Below are positions 22,833-26,243 of a DNA stretch of 64,000 nt, piece by piece. The DNA is from Boudabousia tangfeifanii. Its GTDB lineage: Bacteria > Actinomycetota > Actinomycetes > Actinomycetales > Actinomycetaceae. Each line of letters starts with the position of its first letter. Position 1 is the stretch's first letter. The notes beneath the pieces were generated by a model, which saw nothing but the letters and a program-made list of their open reading frames with translations, was not told the origin of the DNA and did no database searches. Both the position numbers and the translations under genes were made by a program. The stretch spans positions 1,116,001 through 1,180,000 of the forward strand of contig NZ_CP017812.1 of NCBI RefSeq assembly GCF_001856685.1, written 5' to 3'.

Positions 22833-23732
22833 TTAGTAAGTCTCAATCCCTTTGGCTCGGAAGACTTCGCGAATTTCTTCCACCGATTCTTTACTTGGTG
22901 GTGTCACATCTTCTAGCTGGTAATCCAGATTAAGTTCTTTCCACTTATCCCGCCCCATTTGGTGGAATGGTAGAACTTCGACTCGCTCGACGGTTTTCCA
23001 GCGTGAAACGATCTGAGCGACTGCTTGCACATTTTCGGGATCATCAGTTAGCCCTGGAACTACCACGAAACGAATCCAGATTTTCTTTCCAGCTGCGGCC
23101 AAACGATCACCAAATTCAATTGTCGGCTGTAAATCGCGACCGGTGGTGCGCTTGTAGGTCTCTGGGATACCTGACTTAACGTCTAGCAGAACGAGGTCGA
23201 GGTCGTTCATCATATCGTCGGTCAAGTTGCGTCCAAGGAAACCGGAAGTATCAATACAGGTGTGCACCCCCATATCTTTCGCTCCACGCAATAGCCAAGC
23301 TACGAACTGGGGCTGCATTAAGGGTTCACCACCGGAGATAGTTATGCCACCACCAGATGAGCGGAAAATCGGGACGTAACGGGAAATACGTGATAGTAAG
23401 TCTTCTGCCCGTACCGGTTCGCCATCCTTCATTTTGAAGGTGTCAGGATTATGGCAATATAGACAACGTAGTGGGCAGCCTGCTAGGAAGATTGTCATGC
23501 GGGTACCAGGACCGTCAACAGCAGTTACTAGCTCCCATGAGTGCATTGAGCCGATTTCGCCACGGCGAACTGCTTCTAGATGCTCACGACGATCCATTAG
23601 AGGGGCGCCTTCGATACCAGCAGTTCCTGCGCCTTTTAATCTGGGTACTTCGTAATCCAATGGTGCTGGAGCATATTCTCCAGTTGAGCCATCGTGCGAA
23701 TATTTCGTCGCATCAAAGCGAGCGTCAACCAT
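22833..23732 (-). CDS. pflA: pyruvate formate-lyase activating enzyme
   Basis: Radical SAM enzyme that installs the glycyl radical on pyruvate formate-lyase. It has 299 residues. The 4Fe-4S motif CX3CX2C is C86, C90, C93 (GCPLRCLYCHNPDT). GGGITISGGEPLMQP and the downstream SAM-binding segments are present. Compared with E. coli PflA, where the cluster motif is near residue 30, there is an extension of about 55 residues of unknown role at the N-terminus; the ATG at 23732 has GAGG 7 nt upstream, so the extension seems real. The gene is separated from the radical-domain gene by a terminator and has its own candidate promoter. Confidence 0.95.
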   Translation of the reverse strand: MVDARFDATKYSHDGSTGEYAPAPLDYEVPRLKGAGTAGIEGAPLMDRREHLEAVRRGEIGSMHSWELVTAVDGPGTRMTIFLAGCPLRCLYCHNPDTFKMKDGEPVRAEDLLSRISRYVPIFRSSGGGITISGGEPLMQPQFVAWLLRGAKDMGVHTCIDTSGFLGRNLTDDMMNDLDLVLLDVKSGIPETYKRTTGRDLQPTIEFGDRLAAAGKKIWIRFVVVPGLTDDPENVQAVAQIVSRWKTVERVEVLPFHQMGRDKWKELNLDYQLEDVTPPSKESVEEIREVFRAKGIETY

Positions 23733-23771
23733 ATCTTTTCCTCTAATGTCTATCTGGGTTTTTAGACTTTA

Positions 23772-23799
23772 ATAATAGCTTAAAAGCCGGTGGGCTCAA
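23772..23799 (-). promoter_or_regulatory. candidate pflA promoter with -35 inside a terminator hairpin
   Basis: On the minus strand: TTGAGC (23794-23799), a 16-bp spacer and TATTAT (23772-23777), about 40 nt upstream of the pflA ATG. The -35 lies in the left arm (plus-strand view) of the hairpin at 23788-23821. Confidence 0.5.
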
Positions 23800-23821
23800 G
23801 GTTAAAACCTTGAGCCCACCG
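23788..23821 (-). terminator. terminator downstream of the pflB/glycyl-radical gene pair
   Basis: Perfect 16-bp arms (23788-23803, 23806-23821) with a 2-nt centre. On the minus strand GGCTTTTAAG follows. It lies 21 bp after the stop of the radical-domain gene and before pflA, so pflA should receive less transcript than pflB. Confidence 0.8.
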
Positions 23822-23842
23822 AAAGTCACTAACGACTGTGGA

Positions 23843-24094
23843 TCACAGATCGCCGTGGAAGGTACGCGAGATAACGTCTAGCTGCTGTTCGCGGGTCAAG
23901 CGAACGAAGTTAACAGCGTAGCCGGAAACGCGGATGGTTAGCTGTGGGTACTTCTCTGGGTTTTCCATCGCATCGTACAAGGTGTCGCGGTTCAACACGT
24001 TGATGTTTGCGTGGTAAAGGCCTTTGACCCCACCGTTGTCGTCACGCGAGGCTTTCATGCTGGCCATGCGCTCTTCGAAGGTTTTAGTTGCCAT
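23843..24094 (-). CDS. grcA: stand-alone glycyl-radical domain of pyruvate formate-lyase (GrcA/YfiD-like)
   Basis: It has 83 residues. Residues about 31-83 match the C-terminal domain of [24 protein letters not shown] and RVSGYAVNF, with G58 as the radical glycine, then [14 protein letters not shown]. Residues 1-25 are a charged lead not found in full-length PFL. The ATG at 24094 has AAAGGAG 7 nt upstream, a strong initiation site; a longer in-frame reading from 24181 has no homology. The adjacent pflB lacks this domain, so this protein probably supplies the radical in trans as an obligate part of the enzyme rather than a spare as in E. coli. Confidence 0.93.
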
Positions 24095-24140
24095 TTTGGG
24101 CTCCTTTGATTTTGTTTGTTTGATAATTCTTCTATGAGGC

Positions 24141-26243
24141 TCAGGCCTGGGGAATGAATCCCGCGTCCATGATGCCAACAAGATTCTTGATCTGCTCGTC
24201 TAGAGTACGTCCTAGACCTGATGGGGTGATGGTGTTCGTCAAAGAGATGCCGTCTAGGGCATCGTCGTAGTCGAGCTTACCAACCGACATCATAGAAGCG
24301 AGCATGCCGTGGGTGTCCATACCGTTTTCTGGGTTTGCCCCAGGAGCGAATGGAGTACCGGCCTTGTGACCCGATGGGAAGGCACCAGTTGCCTTACCGT
24401 AGACCACGTTCGAGGTGATGGTTAGCACCGACTGAGTCGGGATAGCATCACGGTACATCGGAATAGCCTTGATCTTAGACATGATGGTGTGTACCACGGT
24501 AGCAGCGATATCGTCTGCACGGTCATCGTCGTTACCGTAAACCGGGAAGTCACCTTCGGTCTTGTAGTCAACGATCAATCCAGTTTCATCGCGGATTGGG
24601 GTGACCTTGGCGTAACGGATCGCAGAAAGCGAGTCAGCTACGATGGACAAACCGGCGATGCCACAGCCCATGGTACGCACGATTTCAGAATCGTGGAGTG
24701 CCATTTCGACTGATTCGTAGGCGTAGCGATCGTGGCAGAAGTGAATAATGTTCAAGGCTTCTACGTAAGTGCCGACTACCCAGTCAAGCATTTCTTCGTA
24801 CTTGGCCCAAACGTCATCGAAGTTCAAAGGTTCATCACCCTGAACAGCTTCGTAACCATTTACGACCTGCTTGCCAGAAACTTCGTCACGGCCACCGTTG
24901 ATAGCGTAAAGCAGTGCCTTAGCGGCGTTCACGCGTGCACCGAAGAACTGCATCTGCTTGCCGACCTTCATTGGGGACACACAGCAAGCAATGGCTGCGT
25001 CATCGCCCCAGTGGTCACGAATCTGATCGTCAGCTTCGTACTGAACCGAGGAGGTCTCAATGGAGATCAAAGCACAGAAGTCTTTGTATCCCTGTGGGAG
25101 ACGCTTGTTCCAGAACAAGGTGATGTTTGGTTCTGGAGCTGGGCCAAGGTTACGTAGAGTCTGGAGTAGGCGGAAGGAGGTCTTGGTAACCAAGGTACGT
25201 CCGTCTTCACCCATGCCGCCATCCGACCAAGTTGCCCAGTATGGGTCACCGGAGAAGATGGCGTCGTAGTCAATGGTGCGCAAGAAGCGCACGATACGAA
25301 GCTTGATTACTAGCGCATCGATGATTTCCTGTGCGTCGGATTCGTTGATAATGCCGGCCTTGAGATCGCGCTCAAAGTAGATATCGAAGAAGCCGGAGAG
25401 ACGACCAATCGACATTGCGGCGCCATCCTGAGACTTGACCGAGGCCAAGTAGCCGAAGTAGGTCCATTGGACAGCTTCCTTAGCAGTCTTTGCTGGACCG
25501 GAGATATCGAAGCCATAGGATTCTGCCATTACCTTGAGCTTCTTTAGAGCCTTAATCTGCTCCGAGTGCTCTTCGCGGTAACGTGCCCAGTGCTCGCTGA
25601 ACGGCTTGTCAGCAACTAGGTCCTTATCCTTCATCTTTTCTTCGATGAGCTTATCAACACCGTATAGGGCCACACGACGGTAGTCACCAATAATACGGCC
25701 ACGACCGTACGCATCCGGCAAACCGGTAATGATGTGGGAGGAACGAGCCGCACGGATACGAGGAGTGTAAATATCGAACACTGCATCGTTGTGGGTCTTG
25801 CGGTAACGAGTAAAGATCTTCTTTACTTCTGGATCTGGTTCCTTGCCAGCTTCCTTAATAGCGGTTTCGACCATGCGCCAACCGCCATTAGGCATCATTG
25901 CCCGCTTGAGGGGAACATCGGTCTGCAAGCCAACTACTACATCATCGTCTTCCGAGATGTAACCAGCTGGGAATGCATCAATGTCGGCTGGAACCTTGGT
26001 GTCAACGTCGTAAACACGCTTCTTACGTTCTACCGACAAATAGTCTTTTTCAAGGGTCTTCCAAACACGCTCGGTCTTTTCAGTAGGACCGGCTAGGAAG
26101 GAAGCATCACCTTCGTATGGGGTGTAGTTCAACTGAATGAAGTCACGAACGTCGATCTCTTCATTCCAGTTACCCGTTACAAAGCCTTCCCATGCGTCTT
26201 CGCGCACAGAAGAGGTGGTGTTTGCAGCATCAATTTCTGCCAT
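24141..26243 (-). CDS. pflB: pyruvate formate-lyase catalytic protein lacking its glycyl-radical domain
   Basis: Converts pyruvate and CoA to formate and acetyl-CoA. It has 700 residues. The catalytic Cys pair C420-C421 (IACCVSPM) aligns with C418-C419 of E. coli PFL. Homology runs to residue about 695 ([10 protein letters not shown]), then a stop occurs exactly where the radical domain would begin. The missing domain is encoded 46 bp downstream in a different frame with its own ribosome site. The ATG at 26243 has AGGAG upstream. The candidate promoter is at 26345-26374. This looks like a natural split enzyme, not a recent frameshift. Confidence 0.95.

Follow-up and report, generated by a model that had tools for sequence, protein, structure and literature searches.

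The Split PFL Locus

Pyruvate formate-lyase (PFL), a main enzyme of fermentation, is the classic example of oxygen destroying an enzyme because its radical and its active site sit on the same chain. In the stretch of DNA analyzed here (the window: 64,000 nucleotides of the Boudabousia tangfeifanii genome, contig NZ_CP017812.1, positions 1,116,001 to 1,180,000, numbered from its first letter), this enzyme is encoded in two pieces, the genes lying on the minus strand in the order pflB, a small gene, and pflA (Table 1). The product of pflB keeps the catalytic cysteine pair and ends before the radical domain, while the small gene, in a different reading frame and behind a strong ribosome site, encodes that domain with its RVSGYAV motif including Gly58, for which the large protein has no counterpart glycine. 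Both observations had been made in a preliminary description of the locus and are confirmed by alignment. We put at about 0.9 the probability that, as these sequences suggest, PFL operates here with its glycyl-radical domain as an obligatory separate subunit.

The large protein aligns with residues 9-693 of E. coli PFL, and the small one with residues 697-756 of the same enzyme as well as with residues 67-124 of YfiD. The Pfam Gly_radical model, comprising 106 positions, is itself divided by the split, positions 1-65 corresponding to the end of the large protein and 65-106 to the small protein. Judged from sequence, the large chain retains the PFL barrel and active site and terminates ahead of the strand and loop bearing the radical glycine; the missing strand, loop, and C-terminal helix are exactly what the small chain provides.

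Table 1. Features of the split PFL locus in the window.
Feature	Position	Strand	Basis
pflB, catalytic subunit of 700 aa lacking the radical glycine	24141-26243	minus	ORF and alignment
Catalytic cysteine pair codons C420-C421 (= E. coli C418-C419)	24981-24986	minus	
Intergenic gap between pflB and the small gene, 46 nt	24095-24140	minus	
Shine-Dalgarno AAAGGAG upstream of the small-gene ATG (24094)	24107-24101	minus	
Radical-bearing small subunit of 83 aa (NCBIfam GrcA2), with ~23 N-terminal residues ahead of the radical domain and its G58	23843-24094	minus	
Perfect 15-bp hairpin in the interval from the small gene to pflA	23788-23821	minus	
pflA, radical S-adenosylmethionine PFL-activating enzyme, 299 aa	22833-23732	minus	TIGR02493, 319.8 bits

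Family Membership and Active-Site Residues

By fold the large chain belongs to PFL, sharing 56% identity with E. coli PflB (690 structurally aligned residues). Against the family model TIGR01255 it scores 992.2 bits, missing the cut-off of 994.2 by 2 bits, and its match ends at profile position 681 of 744; the C-terminal glycyl radical domain that this model expects in the same chain resides on the small one. Several other split large chains pass the same cut-off. The adjacent downstream gene, pflA, exceeds the cut-off of TIGR02493 (231.75 bits), giving the pair an activase of its own. The small protein passes the GrcA2 model NF008341 with 160.1 bits (cut-off 145). Thirty small proteins drawn from part of the split loci were scanned with the same model, and each matched it with E <= 1e-40. 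It falls short of TIGR04365, the model of the spare-part GrcA/YfiD proteins, with 88.4 bits against a cut-off of 170, and its extension of ~23 residues compares with an N-terminus of ~60 residues in those proteins.

Conservation was followed across 138 split loci, comprising 119 actinobacterial loci (from two overlapping sets that yield 90 different small proteins and 108 different large ones) and 19 loci of a second, coriobacterial type described below. The catalytic cysteine pair is present in every one of them (119/119 and 19/19), and eight PFL active-site positions, pyruvate-site residues among them, are likewise invariant throughout both groups. An activase motif lies downstream of the pair in 114/119 actinobacterial and 15/19 coriobacterial loci, the flanks of two actinobacterial loci (L055 and L101) ending too soon for a judgment.

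No Intact PFL Beside the Split Pair

The genome of B. tangfeifanii is a single contig of 2.2 Mb, 99.99% complete. A search of it with PF01228, in keeping with the suggestion of the preliminary description that a second, full-length PFL be sought, returned the two PFL halves and no other PFL. One further glycyl radical enzyme is encoded, the class III ribonucleotide reductase NrdD, which has its own C-terminal RVMGY glycine. The PF01228 search covered 99 genomes, namely this one (G000) and 98 relatives, 66 of which matched, and TIGR01255 was applied to the 65 matching relatives together with 5 family members without a match. An adjacent split pair was found in 41 of the 98 relatives and a one-piece PFL1 in 22; the remaining relatives searched with TIGR01255 held another glycyl radical enzyme only (G027), fragments (G071), or nothing (5). 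There was no overlap between the 42 split genomes (G000 included) and the 22 with the full-length form. The GTDB family of B. tangfeifanii is represented by 61 genomes, again counting G000: 40 with the split pair, 15 with the full-length form, and 6 lacking both. Where listed, other glycyl radical enzymes in split genomes reach at most 159.4 bits against TIGR01255, far under 994.2. The earlier proposal that the split is the normal state, and the enzyme one made from two chains, gains support from these comparisons of sequence. As the split genomes carry no one-piece PFL, there is no intact enzyme for the small protein to repair.

Among the best 80 named matches to the large protein, a set that overlaps with the relatives, 76 are split and 4 are one-piece, a ratio that is no estimate of prevalence because the matches were picked by similarity. 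The split loci carry the labels Boudabousia, Gleimia, Buchananella, Actinomyces, Schaalia, Trueperella, Arcanobacterium, Mobiluncus, Winkia, Actinotignum, Actinobaculum, Rothia, Corynebacterium, Propionibacterium, Brachybacterium, and others. Since the same adjacent pair was read in 41/98 related genomes and in 76/80 of these matches, a chance arrangement or a sequencing error is very unlikely, and the objection that resequencing might restore one continuous frame is answered by the recurrence of the pair in dozens of independent genomes. TIGR01255 matched 51 of the 393 genomes sampled across the class, 44 with a one-piece enzyme, 3 with a split one (G000, G092, and G431, the loci of the last two being read), and 4 with fragmentary or truncated forms, making one-piece PFL the commoner form class-wide. 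Strong PFL1 matches in a phylum-wide sample of 396 genomes comprised 21 splits of the coriobacterial type, 2 of the window type, 6 one-piece enzymes, and 1 truncated. A PFL frame in G113 (L154, 6960300-6963800) matches TIGR01255 up to position 637 and continues into unrelated sequence, with a frameshift-like appearance.

Alternatively, the small protein could be a spare part of the YfiD/GrcA kind that repairs an intact PFL, the short pflB frame being an accident of annotation or sequencing. Such a role is implied by its NCBIfam name, "autonomous glycyl radical cofactor GrcA2", and by the RefSeq name GrcA3 of its coriobacterial counterpart, and its C-terminal 58 residues do align well with YfiD. 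However, a spare part coexists with a full-length PFL, and intact PFL is absent from this complete genome and was found in none of the 41 other split genomes. Furthermore, a domain tree of 57 columns with few supported branches puts the small proteins of the window type closest to one another and to actinobacterial PFL C-termini, and E. coli GrcA closest to E. coli PflB. The spare-part explanation is accordingly held to be improbable.

Separate Translation of the Two Genes

All 138 small genes start with ATG, and 133 are preceded by a Shine-Dalgarno-like site. The spacing between large and small gene ranges from 4 to 378 nt, and the frame of the small gene relative to the large one is distributed 48/38/33 among the actinobacterial loci (chi-square p 0.23) and 7/5/7 among the coriobacterial ones. 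The stop codons of the large gene are TGA (66), TAA (42), and TAG (11) in the former and TAG (10) and TAA (9) in the latter. Purifying selection on the small gene is evident from a comparison of the window with L034, with a nonsynonymous divergence (dN) of 0.043 and a synonymous divergence (dS) of 0.84. With its own ATG, its usual Shine-Dalgarno-like site, its occurrence in any frame, and purifying selection, the small protein is, as far as these sequences speak, a separately translated and probably required subunit. Fusions hinted at by open-frame values of ~800 aa in some relatives were rejected, as the DNA has a stop between the two parts; such a stop is present in 41/41 loci parsed (the window and L033-L072) and in G092 (L153).

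Some observations weigh against an obligatory two-chain enzyme. A ninth active-site candidate, H514, is His in 117/119 actinobacterial and 19/19 coriobacterial loci and Leu in 2/119, and three of the 119 actinobacterial loci (L042, L113, and L132) are without a downstream activase motif despite long flanks. A predicted model of the assembled pair (A3, 18 same-frame loci read through) reached a predicted local distance difference test (pLDDT) score of 49.5 and a predicted template modelling (pTM) score of 0.45 and is not used as evidence. Finally, an open stretch of 118 codons in the small frame of the window reaches across the end of pflB, an overlap recurring in 54/81 different-frame actinobacterial loci (window included), as would be expected if programmed frameshifting or, in other loci, stop-codon read-through joined the two frames into a one-piece PFL. 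In 27 of those 81 loci, however, a frameshift would have no path to the small frame, and in 38/119 actinobacterial loci the small gene shares the frame of the large one but is separated from it by at least one stop. Use of all three stop codons, the variable gap, and the Shine-Dalgarno-like sites also oppose fusion, and the 18 read-through rows (A3) show no conserved gap sequence, conservation of the small ORF beginning at about its ATG; a fused product is thus judged very unlikely. Least credible of all is a large protein that is vestigial or works without a radical, with the small one serving another glycyl radical enzyme, for which NrdD is the one candidate in the genome, as NrdD has a radical glycine of its own, all eight active-site residues are kept in every split locus, and a PFL activase gene stands beside the pair.

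Two Split Types and Their Origin

The split PFL occurs in two forms. In the window type, the terminal helix of the large protein is the counterpart of the helix DNLVxMIDGY, found in the coriobacterial small protein, and the small protein starts with a different stretch, KTFEERLASMKxxR. In the coriobacterial type, consisting of a large gene and an adjacent gene for an 83-aa small protein, the break lies ~16 residues upstream, before that helix. The small protein begins with QxDNLVxMIDGY or close variants, and the large one ends after FSI(V/I)PxALGK with an acidic, often Cys-rich tail. A second PFL piece was found in 21/21 genomes of this type, the loci being read in 19/21, and the two families involved (f65 and f86) showed no one-piece PFL1 in the phylum sample. 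The name Coriobacteriia rests on a Collinsella aerofaciens record of the same arrangement, with a small protein identical to that of L221, in which RefSeq annotates pflB (683 aa) followed by grcA3. A locus labelled Subdoligranulum variabile, of the Bacillota (L247, 1435-4032), also holds a split PFL of the coriobacterial type; this type may therefore extend beyond Actinomycetota, although the record could be mislabelled.

The 15 coriobacterial split sequences included in a tree built from 131 large parts group as a single clade with support 100, separate from all others. The different break sites and this separate clade indicate that the two types are probably independent, with two origins. 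For the window type, the placement of small proteins and of E. coli GrcA in the weakly supported domain tree speaks more for a break that arose in the lineage itself than for acquisition of a spare part from enterobacteria. FastTree nested four one-piece PFLs, from a Cellulomonas sp., Miniimonas, and two Sanguibacter, inside the window-type split clade, and a second model with 40 rows again placed three one-piece f3 sequences there, a single split clade not being rejected (approximately unbiased test, p 0.232). The four nested enzymes (L138, L145, L146, and L150) are possible re-fusions. Their junction is tight and reads DAGMxEGL(Y/F)HANINVL. An origin of the small-protein N-terminal extension as a copy of the last helix of the large protein was considered but is not claimed; the permutation p was ~0.04, and other parts of the large chain gave better placements.

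The Hairpin Downstream of the Small Gene

A consensus scan scored no T-tailed terminator at the hairpin behind the small gene, and the folded gap between pflB and the small gene in the window contains no comparable stem. Perfect stems of at least 9 bp lie within 120 nt of the small gene in 13/118 loci, against 1/118 in shuffled sequence, and the same 118-locus scan found stems in 6 gaps between large and small gene; with 13/118 loci only, the hairpin is not a general feature. The genus-mates L033 and L034 have other perfect hairpins, of 16 and 13 bp, behind their small genes, with sequences differing from that of the window. The element of the window is possibly an attenuator or processing site, and may keep the level of the activase under that of the enzyme.

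Relation to Known Proteins and Viral Records

E. coli PflB (TIGR01255; PDB 1H16 and 2PFL) has the same fold, active-site residues, and activase as the PFL of the window but bears its radical glycine in the same chain rather than on a second one. YfiD/GrcA of E. coli and Y06I of phage T4 (TIGR04365; PDB 6OWR) are, according to excerpts of PMC8683613, likewise small stand-alone domains that complete a PFL without its own. YfiD, however, has 127 aa with a disordered N-terminus of 60 residues and rescues a damaged full-length enzyme, whereas the 83-aa protein of the window, with its short extension, has no full-length enzyme to rescue. The GrcA3 model NF038360 is passed by the coriobacterial small protein of L211 (167.2 bits against a cut-off of 158). 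The names GrcA2 and GrcA3 speak of an "autonomous cofactor"; what the genomes indicate is an obligatory subunit for a PFL missing that domain.

Solved PFL chains without the radical domain exist under the name "Formate acetyltransferase" (PDB 38LB, 739 aa, and 38LA, 687 aa). The former has an acidic, Cys-containing tail like that of the coriobacterial large subunit, and the latter aligns to its end at ...SLGK; relative to the window, they represent either a construct or the other split type, with its break ~16 residues earlier. A search for an accompanying small-subunit chain found none for either entry, and both are absent among the 50 fold-search matches listed (library to 2026-04-08), though close homologues should rank at the top. 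Together with the GrcA2/GrcA3 models and the RefSeq names, these entries mean that proteins of this kind have already been handled by others. A naturally split PFL was not found described in the open-licence PMC full text among the matches listed, as judged from titles, abstract openings, and excerpts. The obligatory, recurrent two-chain organization is the new part; the chemistry is known, and the enzyme is a variant of known PFL.

Split PFL genes also occur in the viral collection. A complete split PFL is present in the putative viral L272 (2992-5297 of the 110-kb IMGVR_UViG_3300028591_000126), where a large frame of 685 codons ending ...FSITPASLGKDED is followed by a small frame of the coriobacterial type with 78 codons. 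In L255 and L270, also putative viral, the small gene lies upstream of a partial large frame. Of 18 further loci found with the small protein (L227-L244), 16 hold stand-alone coriobacterial (GrcA3-like) frames of 77-106 codons, some near-identical, and two (L235 and L237) hold a one-piece PFL instead. By tblastn, the small protein matches 1532 phage records.

Proposed Mechanism

In the proposed working of the pair, the small protein would first dock in the open slot of each large protomer, PflA would abstract hydrogen from the docked Gly58, and the loop would return to the barrel after activation. The Gly58 radical would then generate a thiyl radical on Cys420/421 in trans, and pyruvate would be converted to formate and acetyl-CoA. 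Oxygen would cleave the small chain only, at Gly58, and activity could then be regained with a new copy of the small protein; such exchange after oxygen damage is plausible.

Experiments with truncated E. coli proteins bear on several of these steps. Excerpts of PMC8683613 report that PFL 1-695 with YfiD 61-127, which is nearly the natural cut, turns over at 204 per s, compared with 105 for PFL. Activation of the truncated pair was poor: the radical yield was 15.9 uM for PFL 1-733 with YfiD and 2.7 uM for PFL 1-695 with YfiD 61-127, while PFL 1-695 with full YfiD gave 0.5 uM and no binding by isothermal titration calorimetry; activation of E. coli YfiD requires a PFL variant (excerpts of PMC8683613). 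Similarly, E. coli PflB G734A produced formate with GrcA and none without it, according to excerpts of PMC12338860. Docking is the weak point of the E. coli parts, and in the natural pair it is probably secured by the N-terminal extension KTFEERLASMKxxR. The natural pair must bind better than the E. coli pair and the extension is conserved, R9 and R17 being invariant and L10 and M13 nearly so in 30 small proteins, which makes it the docking candidate.

In Fannyhessea vaginae, a member of the Coriobacteriia, grcA was down 17.96-fold and pflB 14.31-fold, listed together in an excerpt of PMC11979175, a joint change that fits co-regulation.

Meaning for Glycyl Radical Enzymes

From these comparisons, the radical part looks like a standing, exchangeable subunit rather than an emergency spare. 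A broader proposal is advanced tentatively, at somewhat less than even odds: PFL would have been split at least twice, at two neighboring joints and in near-oxygen lineages, yielding a cheap, oxygen-consumed wear part on a lasting large subunit, and phages of such hosts would carry the exchangeable part or both parts, keeping fermentation going during infection. If the wear-part reading is true, GrcA2 and GrcA3, which are probably required subunits, would be true enzyme subunits and not "autonomous cofactors". The reading of databases changes as well, as these pflB genes are not truncated. A natural two-chain PFL would be at work in genera of the mouth, skin, and gut (Actinomyces, Schaalia, Rothia, Corynebacterium, and Collinsella), and the natural pair would offer a ready system for the docking, activation, and replacement of a glycyl radical domain, so far studied, in the excerpts cited here, with cut-up E. 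coli proteins.

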